Shown here piece after piece: positions 3,994 to 38,865 of a stretch of 64,000 nucleotides of DNA; positions within the stretch are counted from its first letter, which is position 1, and every line of letters starts with the position of its first letter. Source of the DNA: Phycisphaerales bacterium (GTDB lineage Bacteria > Planctomycetota > Phycisphaerae > Phycisphaerales > SM1A02); assembly GCA_022446795.1 (NCBI GenBank), contig JAKVBX010000003.1, positions 113,056 to 177,055 on the forward strand, read 5' to 3'. Made by a program: the position numbers and the translations under genes. A model generated the notes under the pieces. That model saw only the letters and a program-made list of their open reading frames with translations, searched no databases and had not been told where the DNA came from.

Positions 3994-4030
3994 CCCCGGG
4001 GTGGACCCACCACCGCCCCGGGGATTTTTT
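3994..4030 (+). terminator. Rho-independent terminator after nrdJ
   Basis: Two copies of CCCCGGGG (3994-4001 and 4016-4023) can pair as an 8-bp stem and are followed by six T (4025-4030). It would end the nrdJ transcript before nuoA. Confidence 0.7.
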
Positions 4031-18780: not shown

Positions 18781-18955
18781 CATACTTGATTGCCTGGCTT
18801 TCAAAAACTAGCCAGCTTACCTATTGCATCCACAATGGCCTACGCTGGCCTTATCTAGCACAACTACCAAGATCTAACGATTGACTAAACTACATAAGAT
18901 CCGATTATGCTGGCACCAAGTCAGAATCAAACCCAAAGCTACCGAGGAAGAATGC

Positions 18956-21900
18956 ATGTCTTATTTGACTCCTGATCGTAATGACACCGTTAATAGAAGT
19001 CAGTTCGACAAGGAATCTGCGAGACGCAGACATACACGATTGTCCTCCATTCAAGCTGCACTGTTGACGACTGCAACAGCTACAGTTTTCCTCCTTGCAT
19101 TGGCAACACAACTCCATGGCTTTCAGCCAGAAGCCGGCTCGACATGGGGCTGGACGTACGAACAACTCGATGCTCAAGACTACAGCCCTATCAAGCCAGG
19201 GAAATATGGCTACCCGCCACTGGTTCAACCTGGAACCCTTGACCCCGCATGGTCAGGACATGAATGGCAAAATTCAAACTGGACCGGTTATCAGGATCAA
19301 TACATGAACATCCTGTCGCCCAACGTTTCGCCTGGGATAGCTGGAGGACCAGTTCCATTGGCCAAGTGGTTCAGCACGATGACCTATCCAGCCACAGAAA
19401 GCAAAGATCCCACCCCCTACACCAGAAGTTTAGGGGGGGACGCTGTTACTTATTCTGGGGATTTGGACAGGCTTTACTTTGGAAGTGATCTTGCCGCTGG
19501 TCCACTTACCTTCAAGTGCCAGCCTTGGGGCCTCTTCCTTGGCGGCTCACCCTCGATGTTCACTGATCCTCGTGGCCCCAGCTATACAGAACATGGGATG
19601 CCTGCGTGCTTTGATGGTCACCCTCCCTACATGATGACCCCTAATTTGAGTGCCATGTTTCCCCAGTCGGACCCTGAACATTCGTTCGCCGGTGAAATGG
19701 GCCAGACCTCTGATTTCGCGCCCGGGACTATATCGCCCAGTCTTCAGAATTATCCCATCCAGATAAGCTTCAGCGTGGAAGGTCATCGCGATAATCCTCC
19801 GGAGTGGGGGTATCACTATGTGTCCCCATTTGCAGAGAACGCAACCGTCAGCCGCATAAGCGAACATGGCGCCAGAGACATCAGCATTGACTGGAATTGC
19901 AACTCCACCGCCGCACCACCAGTCACAGCAACGATCGGGCGGGGCCTGCCATTCGTCTGGTTAACTATGGCCCCGACTGTTGCCAATGCCAACATAACTG
20001 GCCTCTGGAACCTCCAGAACGCTATCAATGACCTGCAAAACGTGTCCATTGCTGAAAACGTCTGGTCTAATGACGACTCGAGCACAATAGTGCTTAAAGT
20101 CACAAGCTATGGCCGTCAACAATATTCTGCCGACAACCCCAACACAAGCTACGTGCAGTCCACAGAGTACTACGCTGCCTTCGCTTCTGGCGAGACCACG
20201 ATTGACACTAAAAATGTGTATGCCTTTGGAGGGCCAGGTGGAAGCCACCCGACAGACGCCCTAGTCGCCACTCCCAAAACTCCTGGTGTTGAATGGAACC
20301 TGTGTGTAGGCATGTTGCCGAGCAACTATTCCGACACTGGCGGCTTTATTGATGACGCAGATAACACTCCGACTGACGAATGGTTCAGTGCTGTTACAAC
20401 CATGATGCAAACAGCTGCCCTCGCCGAAGTCGAAGGCACATCGTTGACACCGTCACTCAATAACAACGTTGTCACATGCGAAAACAAGGTGGAATTGGGT
20501 GGCACTGGAACAGATTTTTTCCAATCCATTCTGCCCCACGATTGGCGAGATCTCGATGCTGCCAGCCAAGGACTCTTGGCCACAGTTAATGGGAACCAAC
20601 TTGCCTACAAGACAATTCGTGGCCCCGCCAAATGCATCACGTCTACAACCTATACCACCGAGCGAAACTTCATTGCGCCGTTGGCATTTTTACCCTCAGA
20701 GCAAGACACCGACTATGAAATGCCTGGTGATTCTCCAGATGATGACGGGTATACCTATGGTCATACCATGCAGAAACTGACTCATTTCTATGGCATGCTT
20801 TCAAATCCAGATAACAAAGACTTGTTAAATGAAAATGGCAACTGCATTGCTTCATGCCTGAGATATGAGACTGATTCCAACACCTATGGTGTTGGAATCG
20901 GGACCTACATCTGTGCCAAAGATGCTGTCATGGCCTATCACTGGGCCAACCAAAATGGCAGTTATCCGATGCAAGCACAAAACATCAATTCAATGCTGGC
21001 CTATGTAGATGCACGTATGAATTTGTGGACAAGCACCAGTAGTTCCGGCTCGCCTTTCCCGCCCAGCACAATGTGCGATGCAAACGGCCAAGCAGGTCCA
21101 AATCAAAATGGCACGACTAGAGCCGCATTTCTTAAATTTGAATCGCCTAACGCCGCTAGCACAAGTGCATACTGGAAAACGCTGATTGGATATCCCGCCG
21201 GATATGGTTCCAACGTTGGCAATGACCATCACTTCCACTACGGATATTGGCTCAACGCACTCTACCTGCGAAAGATGCTCGGCAAGAGCATTGATCCGAC
21301 ATCAACAACGCTTAATCAATGGGATGATGTCGCGAATGAAATGATTCTCGATGTGGCCAACTGGACACCAAAGCAAGGAACGACCACTCTCACTTACCCC
21401 ATGCTTCAGTACTTTGATCCATGGGAAGGACATTCCTGGGCCAACGGCTACGGTGGAACCAACATGGCCAATGGCGGCACTGATCAGGAATCGGTGGCTG
21501 AAGCCCTCCATTTTTATGCCGGCATGTATTTCTGGGCAGATCTCCAACTACAAAGCCAAGATCGTGATGATGCGATCGACTACGCAGGCATGAAGACCTA
21601 CGCTGCCTATCTTTTCACAAGTGAATCCCGCACACGTGATCTGTATTGGTTCAACAATGAACAAGACGCATGGGATCCAACTACGTTCACACTGGACAAT
21701 GCGTTGAACATGCCCGCAGCAGATTACGGCCCGGAAAATGATCTCCTTAATGGTCTTCCTGATAGAAAAATTCCATTCATTGCTGTCGTCAAGGGATTCC
21801 AATCAAAGTTCAGCATCCTGTGGGCAGCCGGCAATTACAATTGCACGGAAGTCACAAGTTTGGCAACACCACTCCTGGCTTTCGGCATCAATCGCCTCTC

Positions 21901-22696
21901 TCTTCCGGGGCATGACACCCAGGACTTCACAAAACGGGACAGCGACTGGGATTGGGCCAAAACTGCTGATGATGTTATCTACGACAACTGGCAAAGTGGC
22001 GGAGGTGGAACACAGCTTGGGACTATCAACATGACAGCATTTGATGATTGGAGTGCGGCCTGGGCCGCCACGCTGTCCGGAAGTTCTCATACCAAAGATG
22101 ACGCAACAATGGCCTATCAATCTGAGGTCGTTCTTGGAAACATCAAGAGGGCAATGGGCGACTCAGAATTTGGATGTGTACGAGATCGTCTAGCTGGTGG
22201 CATGGATCGCCAGACGAATGTCGGGTTCGGTCACGTGACACTGCTGGAAGCAGCATATGGCTATGCCAATCGGGATAAGATGGGACTGCCCGTCAAGGGA
22301 TTGACTGCATCTGCAAACCGTGAAGACATCGATTTTCTTTACTATGCCTATGATCGGACTGCAGACGCAGGCCAAACACGACGAACATACATCGTTCTCA
22401 ACCATGGACAACTAGCAGAAAATGATGTCGTAACATTCAGTGATGGTGGAACTGTGGACATCGGCTCAATTTTAGTCGGGCATCACACCAACACACGCGA
22501 CCACTCCTGCCAGTCCGATGTAGATGGCAGTGGCTTGGTTGACATCGAGGATCTGTTGTCGGTGATCGCTGCATACGGAGCATGCGGTGACGATTGTGAA
22601 AACGATTTTACTGGACAAGACGGCCAATCAGATGGCCAGGTCGATACATTTGAAATTCTGATGGTCATCGGCCAATGGGGCTTATGCAACAACTAG
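18956..22696 (+). CDS. GH81-family endo-beta-1,3-glucanase, low-GC second copy, dockerin-like tail
   Basis: Second extracellular beta-1,3-glucanase, 1246 residues. An N-terminal hydrophobic segment (about 33-55) follows a basic stretch, fitting export. The GH81 core shows NDHHFHYGYW, FDPWEGHSWANGYGG and GGTDQESVAEALHF, which correspond to NDHHFHYGYF and NNQESSSEA of the first copy. It lacks the nested CBM6 but has a much longer N-terminal part and Asn-rich stretches. Two D-x-D-x-S/Q-G repeats with DLLSVIAAYG and EILMVIGQWG close the protein. Base composition is unlike its neighbours: I count 63 G+C in 120 bases sampled at 20101-20160 and 21241-21300. The start at 18956 follows GAGGAAG 5 bases upstream; the frame is open from 18881. 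Acquisition by transfer is likely but not proven. Confidence 0.85.
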   Translation: MSYLTPDRNDTVNRSQFDKESARRRHTRLSSIQAALLTTATATVFLLALATQLHGFQPEAGSTWGWTYEQLDAQDYSPIKPGKYGYPPLVQPGTLDPAWSGHEWQNSNWTGYQDQYMNILSPNVSPGIAGGPVPLAKWFSTMTYPATESKDPTPYTRSLGGDAVTYSGDLDRLYFGSDLAAGPLTFKCQPWGLFLGGSPSMFTDPRGPSYTEHGMPACFDGHPPYMMTPNLSAMFPQSDPEHSFAGEMGQTSDFAPGTISPSLQNYPIQISFSVEGHRDNPPEWGYHYVSPFAENATVSRISEHGARDISIDWNCNSTAAPPVTATIGRGLPFVWLTMAPTVANANITGLWNLQNAINDLQNVSIAENVWSNDDSSTIVLKVTSYGRQQYSADNPNTSYVQSTEYYAAFASGETTIDTKNVYAFGGPGGSHPTDALVATPKTPGVEWNLCVGMLPSNYSDTGGFIDDADNTPTDEWFSAVTTMMQTAALAEVEGTSLTPSLNNNVVTCENKVELGGTGTDFFQSILPHDWRDLDAASQGLLATVNGNQLAYKTIRGPAKCITSTTYTTERNFIAPLAFLPSEQDTDYEMPGDSPDDDGYTYGHTMQKLTHFYGMLSNPDNKDLLNENGNCIASCLRYETDSNTYGVGIGTYICAKDAVMAYHWANQNGSYPMQAQNINSMLAYVDARMNLWTSTSSSGSPFPPSTMCDANGQAGPNQNGTTRAAFLKFESPNAASTSAYWKTLIGYPAGYGSNVGNDHHFHYGYWLNALYLRKMLGKSIDPTSTTLNQWDDVANEMILDVANWTPKQGTTTLTYPMLQYFDPWEGHSWANGYGGTNMANGGTDQESVAEALHFYAGMYFWADLQLQSQDRDDAIDYAGMKTYAAYLFTSESRTRDLYWFNNEQDAWDPTTFTLDNALNMPAADYGPENDLLNGLPDRKIPFIAVVKGFQSKFSILWAAGNYNCTEVTSLATPLLAFGINRLSLPGHDTQDFTKRDSDWDWAKTADDVIYDNWQSGGGGTQLGTINMTAFDDWSAAWAATLSGSSHTKDDATMAYQSEVVLGNIKRAMGDSEFGCVRDRLAGGMDRQTNVGFGHVTLLEAAYGYANRDKMGLPVKGLTASANREDIDFLYYAYDRTADAGQTRRTYIVLNHGQLAENDVVTFSDGGTVDIGSILVGHHTNTRDHSCQSDVDGSGLVDIEDLLSVIAAYGACGDDCENDFTGQDGQSDGQVDTFEILMVIGQWGLCNN

Positions 22697-28690: not shown

Positions 28691-30166
28691 GTGCCCAGGA
28701 CCTTCCTGTTCTATGACTTCGAGACCGATGGGGCCCAGCCCTCGGTCTGCCGTCCCGTGCAGTTCGCCTGCCTGCGCACCGATACTGAACTGAACCCGAT
28801 CCCCGGGGAGGATGGAACGGTGCTCTGGTGTCGACCGGCGGTCGATCGACTCCCCGCCCCGGAAGCCTGCCTGGTCACGGGAATCACCCCGCAGCAAGCC
28901 GCCGCGAGAGGCACCTCCGAAGCGGAGTTCCTGCACGAGATCCACGGGCTCATGACCGCCCCGGACACGACGTCCCTGGGCTGGAACTCGCTTCGGTTCG
29001 ATGACCTGGTCTGCCGATTCGGCTTCTGGCGGACCTTTCATGACCCGTACGCACACGGCTATGCCCGAGGCTGCACCGCATGGGATCTGATCGACCTGGC
29101 CCGGGCCGCCCAGGCGCTTCGGCCGGACGGCATCACCTGGCCCACTCGGGAGGACGGGGCACCGTCATTCCGGCTCGAGCACCTCACCGAGGCCAATGGC
29201 ATCGCCCACGAGGATGCCCACGACGCGCTCTCCGATGTCCGAGCGACGGTGGCCTTCGGACAACTGCTTCGAGCGCACCAGGGCGACCTCTGGGCCTGGG
29301 GCGAGTCCCTCACGGACACGGACCTGGTCGAGCGGAAACTGCAGGGCCCCGACCCGCTGGTCCATGTCAGCGCACGAATTCCAGCCCAACTGGGCTGCAC
29401 GTCACCGATCCGGGTCATCACAAGGCATCCCCTCAACAAGCGTTCATGGATCTGCTGGGACCTGCGTCATGATCCCGGCCCACTGCTGGAGGCCTCCACC
29501 GAAGAGATCACCCGCCGGGCCTTCACCGCCGAGGCCAGCCTGCCCCCCGGCGAAAGTCGGTTCGCCCTGAAGGAGATCAAGAGCAACCGATCTCCGTTCA
29601 TCGCACCAGCCGGTGTGCTGAACGACGCTGACACCGATCGGCTGGAACTTGATGAATCCACGTGGCGCCGACACGACGCCATGCTGACACGAGATCCGAA
29701 GGCGCTGGCTGAACTGCAGTCGAAACTGGAGAAGGTCTACGCCACGACACCCCCAGCGGCAACCGATGTGGACGAGGCGATCTATGACAACTTCGTTCCC
29801 CGGGGTGATCAACGCGTCCGCGATCGCGTACACCGGACCCGACCCGGGAAGCTGGCGGAACTGGCGGCCGATTTCGAGGATCCCCGCCTGCCGGAACTGC
29901 TCTTCCACTACCGGGCCCGCAATCACCCCGAGACCCTGGACGCTCACGAGCGACAGGAGTGGCAGGAGCGGTGTCGCAATCGCCTGCTTCATCCTCCCGG
30001 TCGAGATGACCTTGCCTGGACCGAGTGGCTGTCCCATGTCAAGGCGTTGGCAACGGACGCTGGCTGCCCCGCGGACCACCGGCAGATTCTCAAGGCCGTC
30101 GAGGACTGGGGGCTCGACCTGGCCGCCTCCCATGGACTGTCCGTCGAATCAGGCGCTCGGACCTGA
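28691..30166 (+). CDS. sbcB: Exodeoxyribonuclease I
   Basis: Degrades single-stranded DNA 3' to 5' during recombination and mismatch repair. The 491-residue length is close to E. coli ExoI. DnaQ-type DEDDh residues are visible: D9 and E11 in FYDFETDG, an Asp in GWNSLRFDD (about 106), and His/Asp in HDALSDV (about 181-186). The SH3-like and helical C-terminal regions follow (GDQRVRDRV, LLFHYRARN, EWQERCRNRL). The start is GTG at 28691. The 3' end overlaps the convergent globin gene by 18 bases. Confidence 0.92.
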   Translation: MPRTFLFYDFETDGAQPSVCRPVQFACLRTDTELNPIPGEDGTVLWCRPAVDRLPAPEACLVTGITPQQAAARGTSEAEFLHEIHGLMTAPDTTSLGWNSLRFDDLVCRFGFWRTFHDPYAHGYARGCTAWDLIDLARAAQALRPDGITWPTREDGAPSFRLEHLTEANGIAHEDAHDALSDVRATVAFGQLLRAHQGDLWAWGESLTDTDLVERKLQGPDPLVHVSARIPAQLGCTSPIRVITRHPLNKRSWICWDLRHDPGPLLEASTEEITRRAFTAEASLPPGESRFALKEIKSNRSPFIAPAGVLNDADTDRLELDESTWRRHDAMLTRDPKALAELQSKLEKVYATTPPAATDVDEAIYDNFVPRGDQRVRDRVHRTRPGKLAELAADFEDPRLPELLFHYRARNHPETLDAHERQEWQERCRNRLLHPPGRDDLAWTEWLSHVKALATDAGCPADHRQILKAVEDWGLDLAASHGLSVESGART

Positions 30167-30589
30167 GCCCTCGGCCCGATTGCGCATGAAGTCGGCCACG
30201 TGCGCAAACCTCGCATCCAGGAAATCCCGAATCGGTCCGCGTACATCGCAGGCATCAAGTGCCTCGGCCATGCAGGCCAGCCACTGGTCACGCTCCGACT
30301 CACCGATGGGAAAGGGCGCATGCCGCATCCTCAGCCGCGGATGACCGTACTGCTGGACATACAGCTGAGGCCCCCCGAGCCAGCCACTGAGGAACTGGCG
30401 GAACTTCTCCTCGGCAGTGGACAGATCCGCCCCATGCAGTTCCCTGATCCCGGCATAGGCGGGATTCCGATCCATCGTCTCGTAAAAGGCCTTCGCCAGT
30501 TGGCCAACGGCCGCCTCCCCACCCAACGCCTCATAGGGCGTGTGGTCGGCACTGAATGCTGGTTGTCCAGGCCCGGGACCAGCAGTCAT
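30149..30589 (-). CDS. Group II truncated haemoglobin
   Basis: A 146-residue haem globin of the TrHbO/2-on-2 group, binding O2, NO or peroxide in the cytoplasm. It has YEALGGEAAVGQLAKAFYE at the start of the globin fold, the proximal-His region RMRHAPFPIG (about 103-112), and the conserved Trp in RDQWLACM. An N-terminal extension of about 18 residues precedes the fold. Its ATG shares one base with the stop of the receiver gene (TGATG), so translation is probably coupled. It is the last gene of a co-directional chain with a PAS histidine kinase, suggesting a part in gas or redox signalling; that is inference. Confidence 0.88.
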   Translation of the reverse strand: MTAGPGPGQPAFSADHTPYEALGGEAAVGQLAKAFYETMDRNPAYAGIRELHGADLSTAEEKFRQFLSGWLGGPQLYVQQYGHPRLRMRHAPFPIGESERDQWLACMAEALDACDVRGPIRDFLDARFAHVADFMRNRAEGSGPSA

Positions 30590-30969
30590 CAGGCAGCCTG
30601 CCCGCCGACGATGTGCGACTGAACAGCCTCCGCGAGACTCTCACGGTTCATCGGCTTGTGGTACAGCGGCTTCTCCTGGAGCGATTCGTCGACCAGGTTG
30701 GCGTTGTTGTACCCGGTCAGGAAGAAGAACGGTACGTTCTTGTCCACCAGGAAATCCGCCACCGATTCAGACGTCTCCCGCCCGAGGCTCACGTCCAGAA
30801 TCGCGCCATGGCAGACTTCCCGCTGCAGCAGCGACATGGCCCGGGCCGAACTTGGTGCCGGGCCGAGGACCTCGTACCCCATCTGCTCCAGGGACATCTT
30901 GAGATCCATGCCGATCAGGAAGGCATCCTCCACGATGAGAATGCGAAGAGGCTTTCCGGACGCACTCAT
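30589..30969 (-). CDS. Single-domain response regulator (receiver only)
   Basis: A 126-residue CheY-like receiver with acidic residues E14/D15, phospho-acceptor D59 in AILDVSLG, a conserved Thr in FFLTGYN (about 85) and K105 in YHKP. There is no output domain, as in regulators working with HWE/HisKA_2 kinases. Its start overlaps the kinase stop by 4 bases (ATGA) and its stop overlaps the globin start by 1 base. It most likely receives phosphate from that kinase; the downstream target is unknown. Confidence 0.9.
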   Translation of the reverse strand: MSASGKPLRILIVEDAFLIGMDLKMSLEQMGYEVLGPAPSSARAMSLLQREVCHGAILDVSLGRETSESVADFLVDKNVPFFFLTGYNNANLVDESLQEKPLYHKPMNRESLAEAVQSHIVGGQAA

Positions 30970-32441
30970 GAGGACGTGCCCTCGTCCGATGCATGCCCGC
31001 GAAGACGACCGATTTCATACTGGCAATTCGACAGCGGAATGCTGGCATCGAATCGAAAACCCTTGTCTTGAAACTCAACCGTGACCTCGCCCTCCAGTTC
31101 GTAGGGAATCATGCCCTCGATCAACTGCATGCCGAAGTTCTTCTGCTCCGGCTCCACAACGCTGCCCTGGGGGACGGACTCCCGCCACGACAACAGCAGT
31201 TGGGCCTCCGCCTCCTCGCCCTCGATGGACCAGTTCACGACGACACCGGATCCGTCGGGCGACAGACCGCCGTACTTGGCAGCATTGGTCATCAACTCGT
31301 TGATGACCGAGCCGATGGTCATGGCGGCATCTACCCCGACCTGGAGTTCGGGCCCGTCACATTGAATGGGGTTCTGGTCGGACTCACTGATCATGGCTCG
31401 ACCACCACCTTCGACCAGTTCCTTCAGACTGATGGGCTTCCAGGCCCGCTCTGCGAGCATCTGGTGCACCATGGCCATCGAGGCGACGCGTGACGTCAGG
31501 CTCACGATCCGGTCCCGATCGATTACCTCGCCTGCTGCAGCCAGTTCGCACTCGCCCAGGATGATCTGGAGGTTGTTCTTCACGCGGTGATCCAGTTCCC
31601 TCCGCAGCATCCGTTCACGCTGCTCACTGCGCCGAGCATCGGTCATGTCCTCGATGCTCCCCACGAGTTCCCGTTCACCATTCGACAACGTGATGACCCG
31701 CTGCGATTCCCGGATCCAGCGAATCCGGCCGCTCAGATCGATGATGCGATATTCGAGCTGGCCCTGGCCCTCGGCCCAGATCTCCTCCCGGGCCCGGACA
31801 ACCATTGGCAGGTCATCGGGATAGAGGTGTTCATCCCACGTGTACTCATTGGTTTCCAGGGCCGTCGCGTCGAATCCCAGGATCGTGGAGATGTTGGGGC
31901 TGATCCAGGCCAGCACGAGTTCCTGTTCCCGGCGACGGACGACGAAGAAAACGGTTGGACCGTAGTTGGAGACGTCATCCAGGTAGCCACGAACACGGTC
32001 GAGTTCCGCCTCACGCGCCTTGAGCTGTGTCAGATCTCGCAAGGTCGCTACGAAGACCGGTTCACCATCCACTTCCTCCGCTGCAATCGCCAACTCGACC
32101 GGGACACGCTCCCCATCCTTGCGTATACCCTCGATCTCGATTCGCTGTCCAAGGACGGGACCGACACCATGCGCGAGAAAGTGAGCCAAGCCGGCCCGAT
32201 GCGCCTCACGAAACTCGTCCGGGACAATCAACTCGGCCAGTTCACGTCCCAGGGCTTCGCGCTGCTCGTATCCGAAGATCTCCGTCGCCCGCTTGTTGAA
32301 TTCGACCACGTTTCCGTGGTGATCCATCACGATCATGGCATCCAGCATGCATCGATAGACCACCTCCGCAAGGCCCTTGTTGACCAGGGAATCATCACCT
32401 CGTGGATCAATCGATGAATTGGTGGGATGATCGTCTGTCAC
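30966..32441 (-). CDS. PAS-PAS HWE/HisKA_2-type sensor histidine kinase
   Basis: A 491-residue cytoplasmic kinase with no membrane segments. An N-terminal PAS domain (about 25-140: MIVMDHHGNVVEFNKRA, then a PAC region with FVATLRDLTQ) is followed by a second PAS (about 150-270). The dimerisation helix carries H285 in RELDHRVKNNLQII. The ATPase part has NELMTNAAKYGG and ends before a short variable tail. This arrangement is typical of light- or redox-sensing HWE/HisKA_2 kinases, but no flavin or haem ligand in the PAS domains could be assigned. Its start overlaps the upstream gene by 4 bases. Confidence 0.88.
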   Translation of the reverse strand: MTDDHPTNSSIDPRGDDSLVNKGLAEVVYRCMLDAMIVMDHHGNVVEFNKRATEIFGYEQREALGRELAELIVPDEFREAHRAGLAHFLAHGVGPVLGQRIEIEGIRKDGERVPVELAIAAEEVDGEPVFVATLRDLTQLKAREAELDRVRGYLDDVSNYGPTVFFVVRRREQELVLAWISPNISTILGFDATALETNEYTWDEHLYPDDLPMVVRAREEIWAEGQGQLEYRIIDLSGRIRWIRESQRVITLSNGERELVGSIEDMTDARRSEQRERMLRRELDHRVKNNLQIILGECELAAAGEVIDRDRIVSLTSRVASMAMVHQMLAERAWKPISLKELVEGGGRAMISESDQNPIQCDGPELQVGVDAAMTIGSVINELMTNAAKYGGLSPDGSGVVVNWSIEGEEAEAQLLLSWRESVPQGSVVEPEQKNFGMQLIEGMIPYELEGEVTVEFQDKGFRFDASIPLSNCQYEIGRLRGHASDEGTSS

Positions 32442-34921
32442 GGCTGCTCCGAACGTACTGGGCCGAGTGGGCGGATCTTGAGGTTCCGGAACGCGACAAC
32501 GTCGCCATGGTCCTGCAGCGCGATGTGACCACGTGTTCGACGGCCATAATCAGGCATGCCTCTGAACTTGCTGTCGGCGACGCGTCTTTCCCAGTCGGGT
32601 GAGGACAGGACATACTCGACGATCTTCACACCGTTGAGCCAGTGCTCGACCTCATCGCCTCGCATCACGATACGGGCCCGGTTCCAAGTCCCGGGCGGCC
32701 CGGTTGTATCCCAGGCCGGCGGATGCAATGCATAGTTTGAACCCGCCGAAGTCAAGGGGCTCCGTCCGTCCGCATGCCCCTTGTTGTCGAGGACCTGCAT
32801 CTCCGGCCCGGTGGCCCAGACGGCATTGCCGCCCTCGTCCACGTTGTAGAAGATCCCACTGTTACCAGCAGACTCGACACGCCACTCGAGCGACAGTTCA
32901 AAGTCATCGAACTGATCCCGCGTGATGATGTCGCCGCCGGGTCCGGTTCGGACGATCGCGCCATCGATGACCGACCACCCCTCTGGCATGGTGTCCTTGC
33001 GGAATCCGCGCCAGTGATCCGCCGAGGTGCCATCGAAGAGCAGTTGCCACCCTTCCGCTTCCTCACGCGGGGTCAGGACATTGGCTTGCGGCGGTCGATG
33101 ACTGGAACTGGAGTCGATGGAGAAGTGGCGACGAGGAACGCGGTGCATCGTGTACCACGCGTCCGTACTGTGCGGCAGACCATGACCGGTGCTCGACCAG
33201 GGACCGACCAACTGGACATGCACCATGGTGTTCGGTCGCAGGCCGGGAATCGACAGGAAGACGGACTCCTCACCGGACCGGACCGTCGCATGCTCGACCG
33301 CGAGACGTGTCACGTCACCGGTCCCAAGGTCACGAGCGCGAACATGCCAGGCCGCTGGATCAGACGCCACAACTCGTTCAACGGGATGGGAGAAGCGGAC
33401 GTCCAGGCCGTTGGCCCACGCCGCGACATGCGTCATCTCGAAGGGCCGATGGCCGCTGTCTTCCAGGCGATGGATGACCGGACCGTCATCATGATGTCCA
33501 ACGACCCAGGTGTGCCCCAGCGGCCCAGTCGCCACCGCGTTCACGTGGTCGCCGAGTCCCTGGCTGCATCGGAATACCGTGCCCTGGACCCCATCACCCG
33601 TGTCATCCAACTGCATGCGATGCAGTCCTCCCCCACCGCACGCCAACACATGACCGGCCCATGGGCCCGCTGACACGTGCGTCGCCGACGTCGGCCCGCC
33701 TTCGTCCGCTCCCGGCCAGACCACGCCATGCCGGCCTGGTGAATCCTGGCGTCCATGGAGCATCGAAATGCCTCCCGTCGCCGCCGGATCGATGATGGCC
33801 ACGTTGCCCGGGAGATCCTGCACGAAGCCGGTGGGTTCCACCAGGCCATCGGCGATGATCTCCCAACTGCCATCGCGTGAAAGCCGAAGGACACTGCCCC
33901 GGTGCTCACTGCCCACGGATGCACCATCGGCGTCGCGTGTCCGCCCGAGCATCGCCAGGAAGTCACTCCCGTCCGCCACCAGGCCACGGGCCGGTCCCCG
34001 ATCCGCACCGGCGACGGGCCACCCCGTGGCCATCGCCTCGTACTCGTCGATCCGGCCATCGCCCGTCGTGTCCCGCAATCGGGTCAACTCCTCGCGCTGG
34101 ATCACCCACAGTCCATCATCCGCAACCACCAGGCCACCGGGATCGTCGAGCCCCTCGGCCATCACGCCAAGGTCCAGTTCCCCAGTCTGCCGGTCCATGC
34201 CACGGACAAGCCAGAGCGTGCCGCCATCGGTCAAGAGCACCATGCGATCGTCCGCCAACCAGTCCATCGCGGTCACCGACCCGTCGAGGCCCGGCACCGG
34301 GTGCCGATGCGCCTTGAGTCCCGAATGCACCGCTACCAGCGGACTGCCATGTCCGGGATAGCGAGAGAGCGTCGGACGAACGATCTTCTTCCGCCCGGGC
34401 CGACTCGGCATGTTCGGATCCAGGCGCGTTCGCAGCACCTCCGCCGGAATGACCGTGAAGTCATGAGCCAGTGGCGGCTTCCACTTCAGGGCCAGCACCT
34501 CGTCCCCGGTGTTCTCGAAGAACTTCACCTGGAATGGATGGGTTCCGATCTCCAGGGGGATCCGACCGCTCTTGCCTTCCGCTGAGTGCAGGCCCCCGTG
34601 GTCAATGACCTGGGTCCCGGCAATCCAGAGTTCCGACCCGTCGTCACTCGTAAGTTCGAATTCGTATGTCCCGGGCTTGCTGATCACGAGCGAACCGTCA
34701 GCCATCAGGATGAAGTGATCATCAAATCCCCTGAAGTCCTGTGGCCCGGCGAGATCGAGGGTCGGCACGACCATGACGGCATTGGGCAACTGCCCAGGCT
34801 CCAGTTGATGAAGCGTGGTCATGGAGTCACCGATGTCCCAGATGCGAATCGTGACGCCCGGTGTCTCGGATGTGGCGGCAGTCAACGCACAGGCGGAGAG
34901 CAAGGAACAAGCGAAGATCAT
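32438..34921 (-). CDS. Secreted PA14 / beta-propeller / DUF1080 protein
   Basis: An 827-residue exported protein. It has a signal peptide (MIFACSLLSACALTAA), a PA14-type carbohydrate-binding domain (about 20-165, with GTYEFELTSDDGSELWI and HPFQVKFFENTG), a PVC-type propeller (about 200-500), a linker or fibronectin-like part (about 500-610), and a C-terminal DUF1080 domain (about 625-820, LLFDGTSADHWRGF and GNSGIFYN). It lacks the C-terminal cytochrome of the related protein at 4803. Sugar metabolism outside the cytoplasm is probable, substrate unknown. It overlaps both neighbours by 4 bases (ATGA), placing it firmly in the operon ahead of the kinase. Confidence 0.8.
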   Translation of the reverse strand: MIFACSLLSACALTAATSETPGVTIRIWDIGDSMTTLHQLEPGQLPNAVMVVPTLDLAGPQDFRGFDDHFILMADGSLVISKPGTYEFELTSDDGSELWIAGTQVIDHGGLHSAEGKSGRIPLEIGTHPFQVKFFENTGDEVLALKWKPPLAHDFTVIPAEVLRTRLDPNMPSRPGRKKIVRPTLSRYPGHGSPLVAVHSGLKAHRHPVPGLDGSVTAMDWLADDRMVLLTDGGTLWLVRGMDRQTGELDLGVMAEGLDDPGGLVVADDGLWVIQREELTRLRDTTGDGRIDEYEAMATGWPVAGADRGPARGLVADGSDFLAMLGRTRDADGASVGSEHRGSVLRLSRDGSWEIIADGLVEPTGFVQDLPGNVAIIDPAATGGISMLHGRQDSPGRHGVVWPGADEGGPTSATHVSAGPWAGHVLACGGGGLHRMQLDDTGDGVQGTVFRCSQGLGDHVNAVATGPLGHTWVVGHHDDGPVIHRLEDSGHRPFEMTHVAAWANGLDVRFSHPVERVVASDPAAWHVRARDLGTGDVTRLAVEHATVRSGEESVFLSIPGLRPNTMVHVQLVGPWSSTGHGLPHSTDAWYTMHRVPRRHFSIDSSSSHRPPQANVLTPREEAEGWQLLFDGTSADHWRGFRKDTMPEGWSVIDGAIVRTGPGGDIITRDQFDDFELSLEWRVESAGNSGIFYNVDEGGNAVWATGPEMQVLDNKGHADGRSPLTSAGSNYALHPPAWDTTGPPGTWNRARIVMRGDEVEHWLNGVKIVEYVLSSPDWERRVADSKFRGMPDYGRRTRGHIALQDHGDVVAFRNLKIRPLGPVRSEQP

Positions 34922-35571
34922 GGTGTCGGCTCCTTCGTCGCCTTGGCCGGCGGGTCAGCCCAATGCCCGTTGAAGATGGTCGTGATCACGGTGGACCCCG
35001 TGGCATTCATGGTCACATCGGCCAGAAGATTGTCATCCGCACCACGCGGGTGCAGCGTCCCCGTGGTACGGACCGGAAGTGTCAAACCTCCGACAGTACC
35101 TGTGCGGATCCGCTTCACCACGCCTGACTCCCCGGCCGGTGTCATCGTGAACGTGCGCTGCAGGGACAGCAATCCTCCCGGGCCGATCACGGTCTCGGGA
35201 CGTTCCTCAACCTGCAGTCGCTGGCCACTGGGCGCCAGGAGTTCATAGCGAAGGACGGCACGGCCATCCCGGATGCGATAGCCCAACCAGCGACAGGTCA
35301 GCGGCGAGGAACCGGTCTGATCCAACTCGATGAACCAGGACGGCGGTGGCGGCCCCGTCACCAGGATCTCACCACCAAGCGTTACGCGATCCAGCGTGCC
35401 CGTTCGGACGTCCCACGTGGCCTGGACACCGTGTCCGGTCCGGACGGTCACCAGACCCGGTCGGCCATCAGACGTTCCACGCTGCACGAGCGGTCCGGCA
35501 GCCATGGCCATGACCGTCACGACCAGCAACAGACCACGACCCAACATGCTTCGACCATTGGTACCGACCAC
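34918..35571 (-). CDS. Exported protein of unknown function
   Basis: A 217-residue protein with an N-terminal hydrophobic segment (about 9-30) fitting a signal peptide, then beta-rich sequence (VTVRTGHGVQATWDVRTG, ILVTGPPPPSWFIELD). I do not recognise a family. The GTG at 35571 is supported by AAGGAGG 8 bases upstream (35586-35580); an ATG at 35547 is an alternative. Its stop overlaps the PA14/DUF1080 gene by 4 bases, and similar beta-sandwich segments accompany DUF1080 proteins, so it may be a partner of that protein. Confidence 0.65.
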   Translation of the reverse strand: MVGTNGRSMLGRGLLLVVTVMAMAAGPLVQRGTSDGRPGLVTVRTGHGVQATWDVRTGTLDRVTLGGEILVTGPPPPSWFIELDQTGSSPLTCRWLGYRIRDGRAVLRYELLAPSGQRLQVEERPETVIGPGGLLSLQRTFTMTPAGESGVVKRIRTGTVGGLTLPVRTTGTLHPRGADDNLLADVTMNATGSTVITTIFNGHWADPPAKATKEPTP

Positions 35572-35579
35572 GCGACAGA

Positions 35580-35586
35580 CCTCCTT
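35580..35586 (-). promoter_or_regulatory. Strong ribosome-binding site selecting a GTG start
   Basis: AAGGAGG on the minus strand, 8 bases before the GTG at 35571. Confidence 0.65.
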
Positions 35587-35637
35587 GAGCCAGCAGAGGA
35601 GCAGCGTACCACTTGACTCAGGAAAGCTGCAGCCGAC

Positions 35638-36255
35638 TCAGCGGCGGGTCGCCCGGACGCCGCCATCCAGCCGGACCAGCAGATCTCGAGCAGCCAGGAG
35701 GCTCATGCTGGCCTCCCCGGCCAGCGTGCCTCGACCATCGACCAGCGCCAGCGTGATCATGGCCTGCGGCGTGGAATCGGTCGGGGTCCGGACCTGGCGG
35801 ACCTTCCAGTGCCCCCCGTTCACGATCACCCGATCCTGGTCGCCCTCGGGTTGCATCTTGAGGCTCACCCGGATCGGGCGGGCCGACGCCGTGGCGTTCG
35901 GCTCAAGGGTATCAAGCGCAACGAGTTGCTCCAGCATGCTGGTCAACTGAAGGCCCGATTCGTCATCCAGTCGCGCGTCCATGACCCACGTCGCCCGACC
36001 GGGATCGACGATCGCCAGGGTCGTTCTCGGATCGATGCTCTTGTCGGTCCCCTGGGGCGACTGGTCGTACGTGGGACGAGCAACGATGAAACGCAGTTCC
36101 TCGGATGGCCAGCGATCACCGTTCGCCGCTTCCGGCAGCCGACTCACACGGGCATCGGGCCCGGCGCGTTCAGGCGTGCGTGGCGGCGCCGAACAGGACA
36201 GCGGCATCGCCGCGGCCATGACCAGCCCGATGAGCGGAACCCATCGATCACTCAA
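35638..36255 (-). CDS. Predicted lipoprotein of unknown function
   Basis: A 205-residue protein with a lipoprotein signal: MSDRWVPLIGLVMAAAMPLSC, Cys21 acylated. The rest is a soluble domain with segments such as LRFIVARPTYDQ, ATWVMDARLDDESG and ASMSLLAARDLLVRLDGG. I do not recognise it. Its start overlaps the stop of the 835-residue protein gene by 8 bases and its stop lies 66 bases before the next gene in the same direction. Confidence 0.65.
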   Translation of the reverse strand: MSDRWVPLIGLVMAAAMPLSCSAPPRTPERAGPDARVSRLPEAANGDRWPSEELRFIVARPTYDQSPQGTDKSIDPRTTLAIVDPGRATWVMDARLDDESGLQLTSMLEQLVALDTLEPNATASARPIRVSLKMQPEGDQDRVIVNGGHWKVRQVRTPTDSTPQAMITLALVDGRGTLAGEASMSLLAARDLLVRLDGGVRATRR

Positions 36256-38755
36256 CGCTCATCTCCACCTGGGCTGCCTCAGCCGCGTCCTCTCCGACGA
36301 TCTCGGAATAGAGGCCGGGGACCTCGACGGCACGCTCTTCACCGAGCATGAGCATCATCCGGGTCCGGGTCCGGTTGTTGAGTTCACCGCGACCGTACTG
36401 GAGCTGCTCGGACTTCATCCACGAATCCATCATGCCCCCGTCCGGCGGCCAGGAGAAGTTGGCCGTTGACTGCGTCTTGGCGAGCGTGAGCATCTGGTCC
36501 GTGTAGTCACGGTACTGGCTGCGATGGTCCAGGATCAGGGCCTCGACTGACTGGCGTTCCGCCGGGGTCAGCGACTGCAGTTGCAGAACCTCCTCGAAGG
36601 TCTTGTCAAGCGAGTTGGAATCGCGGAAGACAGAGGGATACGCGGCCTTGTCATAGTCTTCACGCAGTGGCCATCCAGCATCCTCTGGCAGTGCTTCAGC
36701 CAACTTGTTCATCACCTCACGATTGGCTTCGATGAGGCGGACCGCGGTGTCGTTGAGTTCCTCGCGACGCTTCTGGCGGAGTTCCTCCATCTTGGAGCGA
36801 ACCTCTTCCTCGTACTCCTCGCCGGACCACAGCCGCTGCTGGATGCTCTGGACCTTCTCCATCTGCTCCTCGAGCAGCTCGATATTCCCGACAACGACCT
36901 CCTCGTAGTCCTTGAGAAGGTCCACGACCTTGCCGCGGGTCTCCACGTCGATCGAAGCAGGATCGGAGGCCAGCACGAGGGCCCCCACGTCGATGAACGA
37001 CTCCGGACGCTGTCGGAGTACCCAGTCGCCCTGCTGCTGTCCCACGCGGGTCCGGGCCCGCTCCTGGGCACGGCGAATGGTCGCGACAATCTCCGGATCG
37101 ACACCCTCGGGCATCGAGATGGCGAACTCCTCGAAGAACTGGTTCTCCCGCTCGCCAAGCTTCACCTTGTAGACATCCGTCACCTCGACTCGCGCATCGC
37201 GACGCTTGAGCCACTGGCGACCGCCCTCCTCGGACTCGATCGACTCGTACCGCGCTTCCAGGTCCTGGTCATAGGACTTGGCCATCGCCTCGTAGTCGGA
37301 CATGTAGCCCTCGTGCAGGATCTCGATGAGCGGCTGCTCCGACTCGGGAACACCCACCCAGAGGGAGAACTGGATCACCTGATCCTTCGACATCGGAGGA
37401 ATCGGGAAGTCGCTGCTTCGCTGCCATCGTGAACTCCCGGAACTGGAGCCACCCCGGCCGGTACGACCACCGCCCCGTCGAGACCATCGAGAGCCCCGGT
37501 CTTCCTCCTTGGATTCCGCTGAATTGGCGGCTTCCAACTGTTCCTCGGTCAGCAGTTGCTCGACCTGCTCCGTCGCCGACTCGGCCATCTTGGTGACTCG
37601 CTCACGGTAGCGATCGATGGCCTCCTGGTACTTGTTCAGTGACTCATCCTCGAACTCGTCGATCGTCCGGTAGGCCCGCTTCTTCTCGTAGGCCTTGGCC
37701 ATCTTGCCGGAGACGGACTGGAACTCCATGTTGAGCCCGTCGAGAATCTGCGCCATCTGTTCCTGGCGTTCCGGGCTGATGGACGGGAGGTCCATGGCTC
37801 GCTTGATGAAGGCGCGAGCCTTGAAGACATCATTGCCTGAACCCCTGTAGACGTCGCGGAAGTACCGCTCCTGGAAATCCAGCGCCTTGTCCGGCGGAAG
37901 CACGGGGTAGATGCGCTCGTAGGTGTCCCAGTTCAATTCACTGATCTTGGCCGACGCTTCCTGGAGCGGAACGGACTGCTGGTCGAAGATGGCCTTGAGA
38001 TCGTTCTGCCGTTCCTCGTCGGCGAAGAACGTCATCATCTCCATCATCTCCATGTCCCGCACGCCCATCCGATCGACCTCGTCGAGCAGCATGTCGACAC
38101 CCTCGAGCATCCGGTCCTGGAGCCGGTCACAGAGCCGCCCCAGATTCCGCTCGTATCCCAGCATGGGAACGTGAACGGCCTCGGTTTCCAGCGCTGTCAG
38201 GTCCAGGCGTTCCACCATGCTGTGCAGGTCGGCGCCGGCGCCCCGGTTGAAGTTCTCGACGAACCGAAGATGGATCGTGCGGTAGGCCTCTGCCTTGCGG
38301 CGACCACGAACCCGTTCGAGTGCCGGCAGCTGGTCCTCGTGCAGGAGCCCCTGGACCTGGTTGAAGAACTGGTTGTCGATGCGTTCAAAGGCGTCCCAGA
38401 CATTGACGGCGGCATCGATGACCGCCTCGATCTCCTTCCGGGGCGGAATCTCGAAGTTCCGGCCGCCCATGAAGTTCATGTTTCGGGACATCGAGATTCC
38501 CTGGTCGACCAGCTCCTTCAGCTCGCCCTCCTGGAGCTCATTGAACTGACGGCCATAGGTCTCATGAATGGTCAGCATGGCCTCGGCCTGGCTGGGAGAG
38601 AGCTGCAGTTCCTCCTGCATTGGGCGGAGGTCCTGGACCGAGATCGGCTGGACGAAGAAGGGATACCGCTGGGCCTGGGCAACACCCGGTGTCAACAGCA
38701 GGCTGGACACACCGAGGATCAACAGGGCCATGAGCGACTGGACTCGAGGAAGCAT
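36248..38755 (-). CDS. Large exported helical protein, unknown function
   Basis: An 835-residue protein with a signal peptide (MLPRVQSLMALLILGVSSLLL to VAQA). It is rich in Glu, Arg and Gln and looks almost wholly alpha-helical. Several segments recall LTxxQ/Spy-type helices, such as LSPSQAEAMLTIHETYGRQF and LTPAERQSVEALILDHRSQY, so it may be a periplasmic chaperone-like or stress protein with repeated units. A short Gly/Ser/Arg-rich spacer interrupts it (about 430-460, SRWSRRGGGRTGRGGSSSG). The start at 38755 follows GGAG 8 bases upstream; the frame is open to 38803. It heads the seven-gene chain. Confidence 0.7.
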   Translation of the reverse strand: MLPRVQSLMALLILGVSSLLLTPGVAQAQRYPFFVQPISVQDLRPMQEELQLSPSQAEAMLTIHETYGRQFNELQEGELKELVDQGISMSRNMNFMGGRNFEIPPRKEIEAVIDAAVNVWDAFERIDNQFFNQVQGLLHEDQLPALERVRGRRKAEAYRTIHLRFVENFNRGAGADLHSMVERLDLTALETEAVHVPMLGYERNLGRLCDRLQDRMLEGVDMLLDEVDRMGVRDMEMMEMMTFFADEERQNDLKAIFDQQSVPLQEASAKISELNWDTYERIYPVLPPDKALDFQERYFRDVYRGSGNDVFKARAFIKRAMDLPSISPERQEQMAQILDGLNMEFQSVSGKMAKAYEKKRAYRTIDEFEDESLNKYQEAIDRYRERVTKMAESATEQVEQLLTEEQLEAANSAESKEEDRGSRWSRRGGGRTGRGGSSSGSSRWQRSSDFPIPPMSKDQVIQFSLWVGVPESEQPLIEILHEGYMSDYEAMAKSYDQDLEARYESIESEEGGRQWLKRRDARVEVTDVYKVKLGERENQFFEEFAISMPEGVDPEIVATIRRAQERARTRVGQQQGDWVLRQRPESFIDVGALVLASDPASIDVETRGKVVDLLKDYEEVVVGNIELLEEQMEKVQSIQQRLWSGEEYEEEVRSKMEELRQKRREELNDTAVRLIEANREVMNKLAEALPEDAGWPLREDYDKAAYPSVFRDSNSLDKTFEEVLQLQSLTPAERQSVEALILDHRSQYRDYTDQMLTLAKTQSTANFSWPPDGGMMDSWMKSEQLQYGRGELNNRTRTRMMLMLGEERAVEVPGLYSEIVGEDAAEAAQVEMSVE

Positions 38756-38865
38756 CGTCAATCTCCATTCAGAGGCTGGGGCAAGGGTTCTCTGGCCCCC
38801 CATGATAGCCCCCTATCCGCAGGACTCCATGGGGCCATTACACAATCCCCCGCATGGCCACGTGC

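Follow-up and report, generated by a model that had tools for sequence, protein, structure and literature searches.

In the described H-NOX-linked kinases of the HahK type, a kinase gene lies beside a separate small haem protein and a receiver, and in the globin-coupled kinases (AfGcHK, and NmpU with NmpRST) globin, kinase and receiver share one locus. AfGcHK autophosphorylates in a manner dependent on oxygen (O2), as reported in an excerpt of PMC6211767. The FATGUY receivers MrrA and SdrG combine an HWE/HisKA_2-class kinase with an output-less receiver, and single-domain receivers of HWE/HisKA2 kinases act as intermediaries in Caulobacter and Sphingomonas (excerpts of PMC5964349 and PMC9981736). 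A further comparison is offered by YjbI of Bacillus subtilis, which is named as a group II truncated haemoglobin and requires Y63 for its peroxidase-like activity (PMC9536834, in excerpt). Although truncated haemoglobins are widespread, the function of most of them is unsettled. Here, we analyzed a 64,000-nucleotide (nt) stretch of contig JAKVBX010000003.1 from a Phycisphaerales bacterium; the whole stretch is called the window, and all locus coordinates are given in its numbering. On its minus strand, the genes for a soluble PAS histidine kinase, a single-domain receiver and a group II truncated haemoglobin overlap one another in a row. As far as searched, this is a new arrangement of known parts, restricted to one genus in the samples covered. 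We propose, with a probability of roughly 55%, that it represents an inserted, co-expressed phosphorelay pair standing beside an independent globin.

With gene starts called mechanically, the kinase (491 amino acids (aa), GTG start) occupies 30966..32441, the receiver (126 aa) 30589..30969 and the globin (146 aa) 30149..30589, all on the minus strand. An ATGA at 30966..30969 joins the kinase stop to the receiver start, and a TGATG at 30587..30591 joins the receiver stop to the globin start. The first-pass annotation of this DNA had described the three genes as a co-translated triplet. Its coordinates and both overlaps proved exact when read in the sequence, and its identification of the three proteins was upheld by Pfam domains and, for the globin, by the Protein Data Bank (PDB) relatives 2xyk and 1ux8; the unit itself, however, is longer than a triplet. 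Upstream lies a gene for a protein with PA14 and 3-keto-disaccharide hydrolase domains by Pfam (827 aa, 32438..34921, minus strand; hereafter the enzyme), whose end shares 4 nt with the start of the kinase, a GTGA at 32438..32441. Because the kinase begins, at its GTG, within the last codons of the enzyme gene, the co-translated unit should comprise at least four genes. Along the run from 38803 to 30149, five of the six junctions overlap, whereas of the 31 remaining junctions between same-strand genes across the window only one does, so that such overlaps are no general habit of this DNA. We infer that the kinase–receiver pair shares a transcript with both the enzyme and the globin and is translationally coupled to them.

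The kinase matches PAS_9, PAS_3, HWE_HK (38.6 bits, cut-off 22.8) and HisKA_2 (37.3 bits, cut-off 22.3) in Pfam. It is ordered as PAS1, with His81 at the position of the FixL haem histidine, PAS2 (the PAS_3 match), and a dimerisation and ATPase part of the HWE/HisKA_2 class. It has no transmembrane stretch, the highest 19-residue hydropathy being 1.19. The phosphoacceptor His285, assigned by position, is invariant in the kinases of the six genomes that make up our sample of the genus (G035, G064 and G086 among them), and so are W419 and E421 of a WxE motif at 419-421. In the alignment of these six kinases, the N-box histidine of strict HWE kinases is absent, and N381-E382-L383 stands invariant in its place. 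Taking the WxE motif and the N-box histidine as the criteria for HWE kinases, we file the protein only under the HWE/HisKA_2 class because that histidine is absent. The closest PDB entries to its C-terminus are the blue-light-activated kinases 6ph4 and 5epv, which we take to be of the HWE/HisKA2 type.

Only Response_reg (E-value 4e-7) is found by Pfam in the receiver, which carries no output domain; its acidic pair E14/D15, D59, T85 and K105 are invariant in all six genus receivers. The window receiver contains PFFFLTGY, a FATGUY-like motif. In all six genus receivers, F-L-T-G-Y is followed by N, D, G or S, with L in place of A and the final Y missing. The FATGUY motif is kept only in part, and the general stress response role of MrrA and SdrG is not extended to this locus. 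The globin matches Bac_globin (PF01152, E-value 2.5e-36), and its best PDB relatives are the 2-on-2 haemoglobin 2xyk, YjbI (1ux8) and 4uur, which we take to belong to group II. All 17 rows of the alignment carry Y36, H52, Y77, H90 and W103, and we assume Y36, H90 and W103 to be Tyr B10, His F8 and Trp G8, respectively. YjbI is of the same globin group and its Y63 aligns with the invariant Y77, but yjbI is co-transcribed with the gene for an Spx adaptor in the yjbIH operon, with no two-component pair. Searches of the source genome at E-values up to 1 returned the globin itself alone. It reads as an ordinary group II truncated haemoglobin with the residues expected of a working one. Genus-special residues, considered as a mark of a new interface, were rejected: no position fixed in the six genus rows is absent from the 11 other rows, and there is thus no sign of a new globin interface.

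Within the genus, the arrangement is stable. The order enzyme, kinase, receiver, globin is kept in all six genomes, as is the 4-nt overlap between enzyme and kinase (in G064 just the final part of the enzyme lies on the contig). Kinase and receiver overlap in five of the six, with an 8-nt gap in G086, and a 1-nt overlap joins receiver and globin in five, with a 6-nt gap in G035. In contrast to AfGcHK and NmpU, where a protoglobin-type sensor domain is fused to the kinase, a separate 2-on-2 globin is found here, and globin and transmitter occupy separate reading frames in all six genomes. Identities to the window proteins are 47-53% for the kinases, 66-75% for the receivers and 66-70% for the globins. 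The genus neighbourhood is, however, syntenic as far as the contig ends, and includes exodeoxyribonuclease I, a DUF481 gene, the enzyme and an 851-aa protein. Adjacency alone therefore shows no function, since it would be expected even without any functional tie.

Outside the genus, the linkage disappears. In a family sample of 151 genomes, a globin was found in 103 and a kinase (E-values up to 1e-30) in 24; among the matches listed, both occurred in 16 and were neighbours in six, all of this genus. A class sample of 327 genomes gave PF01152 in 96, PF07536 in 55 and both in 20, of which two had them as neighbours, both from this genus, against none of the 18 others. Additionally, the best 80 globin loci in named genomes among the matches listed were surveyed, with flanks of up to 4 kilobases, many of them ended by the contig. 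An HWE-class kinase with a receiver was present at two loci (the G086 and G035 records of this genus) and at none of the other 78. Receiver and kinase models were run on all frames of at least 60 aa at E-values up to 1, a search that other kinase classes could escape, and a Pfam scan covered ten proteins from these loci; one further locus of the 80, that of Thauera sp. Sel9 (L110), has a regulator and a kinase of another kind. Related globins elsewhere adjoin LepA, MetH, OmpH-like or DMT_YdcZ genes. The idea of a triplet system widespread in the Phycisphaerae was rejected, as the triplet was seen only in the six genus genomes among those sampled.

These results bear on the further claims of the first-pass annotation, which had interpreted the globin as the third member of a two-component gas-sensing or gas-removing module, had proposed looking for the triplet in other Phycisphaerae, and had named relatives with a globin unlinked to the kinase as evidence against the module. 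The linkage of globin and kinase is real and genus-wide, but it is confined to this genus in the family and class samples. Relatives with an unlinked globin do exist outside the genus, three related genera having enzyme and globin side by side with neither kinase nor receiver. The gas role is putative; in its favour are the H-NOX link of some kinases of the same clade in related genera and the FixL haem-histidine position retained in PAS1. Its remark that no named system has this make-up agrees with the published literature searched, in which we found no system of kinase, receiver and truncated globin, although this is weak evidence of absence.

The three related genera also suggest how the arrangement arose. 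A homologue of the enzyme is followed directly by the globin in G047 (genus g5; gap of at most 8 nt), in G065 (g36; overlap possible) and in G034 (g35; gap of at most 26 nt), and exodeoxyribonuclease I is convergent to the globin in the latter two. In G050 and G075 (both g8), enzyme and globin are separated by a gene on the opposite strand. Given that three related genera have the enzyme–globin adjacency with no pair, the pair was probably inserted. A midpoint-rooted tree of the 851-aa family resolves three supported groups, namely the genus, g5 with g8, and g35 with g36, and only the genus has the pair in this place. Insertion is favoured over loss because one insertion on the stem of the genus is simpler than repeated loss. 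Most likely, the pair was inserted between enzyme and globin in the ancestor of the genus and not lost elsewhere, and the globin probably stood beside the enzyme before the kinase arrived. This probable sequence of events speaks mildly against functional unity of the globin and the pair.

According to the proposed reading, the pair would have entered between the 3-keto-disaccharide hydrolase gene and its older neighbour, the globin, in the ancestor of the genus. The kinase would use its PAS domains as sensors, with haem, redox state or oxygen as a possible input of PAS1, autophosphorylate at His285 and then hand the phosphate to Asp59 of the receiver. Like MrrA and SdrG, the output-less receiver may pass the phosphate to unlinked partners or bind them. 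The globin would carry out its own O2, peroxide or nitric oxide (NO) chemistry, sharing expression with the pair and forming no obligate part of the phosphorelay. If the globin is such a passenger, the locus exemplifies a kinase–receiver cassette moving into an unrelated operon.

Several observations weigh against this reading. The four-gene order and most overlaps have been kept although the kinases are so far diverged from that of the window. The root of the tree behind the insertion is a midpoint only. Furthermore, Thauera sp. Sel9 (L110:1698-4426) has another overlap of this sort: an OmpR-type regulator, a RisS-like sensor kinase and a group II globin stand in a row, and the kinase stop at 4014 and the candidate globin ATG at 4004 give an 11-nt overlap. 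This locus resembles ours in having the three kinds of gene side by side, but its kinase (RisS periplasmic domain, HAMP, HisKA) is unrelated and its regulator is DNA-binding; it appears to be an independent kinase–globin coupling. Finally, some kinases of the same clade in related genera are linked to H-NOX, and H-NOX was found in none of the six genus genomes, a pattern that fits a swap of haem partner.

The last point leads to the strongest alternative, which we nevertheless regard as somewhat unlikely: a module in which the globin, in the manner of H-NOX, binds the kinase and controls it according to its O2 or NO ligand, or adjusts the local gas concentration read by the kinase. Binding and regulation of kinases are documented for H-NOX proteins (PMC8738867, in excerpt), and the translational coupling kept in the genus is consistent with such a partnership. 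To place the kinase, 12 related-kinase loci were compared; ten belong to other genera, and the remaining two (L090, L091) are the genus's own second kinase–receiver pair. A receiver was present at eight and a globin at none, so that pairs lacking a globin are common, in favour of the proposed reading. Three kinds were recognised. The first comprises the HNOBA-PAS-HWE kinases at L082-L085, of which those at L084 and L085 are accompanied by an intact H-NOX gene. At L210 and L211 (g35), too, H-NOX stands next to a kinase belonging to this clade; HNOBA was identified in the kinases of L082-L085. Kinases of the clade thus adjoin H-NOX in genera g5, g35 and g36 (L084:3406-5404, L085:4564-6556, L210:2777-4781 and L211:2505-4515), and these four loci are predicted to encode H-NOX phosphorelays in other, related members of the family. 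The second kind consists of the single-PAS kinases of g8 (L081, L087, L089) and the third of Cache-HAMP kinases (L086, L090). Some kinases of the clade in related genera are of the HahK type. The present locus differs in having a truncated globin instead of H-NOX and no HNOBA found in its kinase. The H-NOX link of these relatives argues mildly for functional unity of the globin and the pair.

The same survey limits what the H-NOX link can carry. No HNOBA domain was matched in the window kinase or in two other genus kinases (three of the six scanned). In the kinase tree, the kinases of the genus branch by themselves, outside the H-NOX-linked clade, although approximately unbiased (AU) tests that joined them to the H-NOX-linked, GFO-linked and Cache-type kinases gave p values of 0.059, 0.137 and 0.157, respectively. 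Direct descent of the genus kinase from the H-NOX-linked clade is thus disfavoured by the tree but not rejected at 0.05, and by these p values the genus kinase may stem from any of the three kinds. H-NOX (PF07700) occurs in 80 of the 151 family genomes and in none of the six genus genomes, but it is without a match in 71 of 151 overall and in 65 of the 145 outside the genus, including G047 and G050, so its absence from the genus is not special. Moreover, only four of 20 H-NOX loci fetched have an HWE-class kinase. With 65 of 145 other genomes lacking H-NOX and four of 20 loci holding such a kinase, neither the absence of H-NOX nor its pairing with an HWE kinase is a rule. The probable presence of the globin next to the enzyme before the kinase came, and the lack of genus-specific globin residues described above, also speak against a dedicated haem partner. 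In its most specific form, the truncated haemoglobin would have replaced H-NOX, with the gas-bound globin docking on the PAS-PAS kinase and gating phosphoryl flow to the receiver; we consider this distinctly doubtful. If true, it would be a two-component system with a separate 2-on-2 globin as sensor subunit. The locus offers a concrete and inexpensive test of a truncated globin as a separate signalling subunit.

Other features of the H-NOX loci were recorded in passing. A divergent single-domain receiver is present at L084, L210 and L211. Pieces of H-NOX lie beside HNOBA kinases at L082:3782-4285 and L083:5770-6141, representing decayed genes or assembly errors. At L208 and L209 (g8), H-NOX is paired with a quite different HWE-class kinase outside the clade, and tandem H-NOX gene pairs occur in other family genera (L224:3236-4422, L227:3496-4929).

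A different possibility, which we judge unlikely, is that gas is sensed by a haem-PAS domain of the kinase, as in FixL or DosP, and that the globin is a co-expressed detoxifier or oxygen buffer. The best PDB matches of PAS1 are indeed FixL (4.3e-15) and DosP (2.1e-13). The column of the FixL haem histidine holds His in all six genus kinases (His81 in the window) and in eight of eight related PAS rows, a count that leaves out L088, L090 and L091, whose rows could not be aligned as equivalent PAS domains. In the source genome, the two further PAS_9 proteins that were found lack the FixL-type His motif, as judged by eye. However, the column of FixL Arg220, which we take to be the distal arginine, is not kept: it is Ile in all six genus kinases, and each of the 14 rows has Ile, Val or Leu there, with an Arg one residue earlier in 13 of the 14. 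The histidine is also kept in kinases with no globin neighbour, and PAS domains for which no haem binding is known often carry it as well. The kinase class differs from that of FixL and DosP. Haem binding by PAS1 is possible, and haem in this domain putative.

It is highly improbable that the pair controls the 3-keto-disaccharide hydrolase branch of the operon with the globin as downstream passenger, for although the kinase overlaps the enzyme gene in all six genomes and a GFO/IDH/MocA oxidoreductase, a type that works in 3-keto-sugar routes, lies directly upstream of the related kinase–receiver pair at two of three g8 loci (L081:4352-7919, L087:2975-6575), the third (L089) has a divergent peptidase-like gene upstream of the kinase and the receiver has no DNA-binding output.

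The remaining genes around the locus complete its description. Exodeoxyribonuclease I (28691..30166, plus strand) runs convergent to the globin gene, with 18 nt of overlap at the globin stop. At the head of the run (34918-38803) are three minus-strand genes whose products have no Pfam match above the cut-off: a 217-aa protein (34918..35571), with a 4-nt overlap with the enzyme start, a 205-aa protein (35638..36255) that is a member of the run, and the 851-aa protein (36248..38803), the probable head, whose family extends across several genera with homologues in the related ones. Elsewhere in the window, a 1271-aa open frame at 18881-22696, missed in gene calling, has a C-terminus that appears dockerin-like by eye, and a 1088-aa frame preceding it ends in a similar stretch, again judged by eye.

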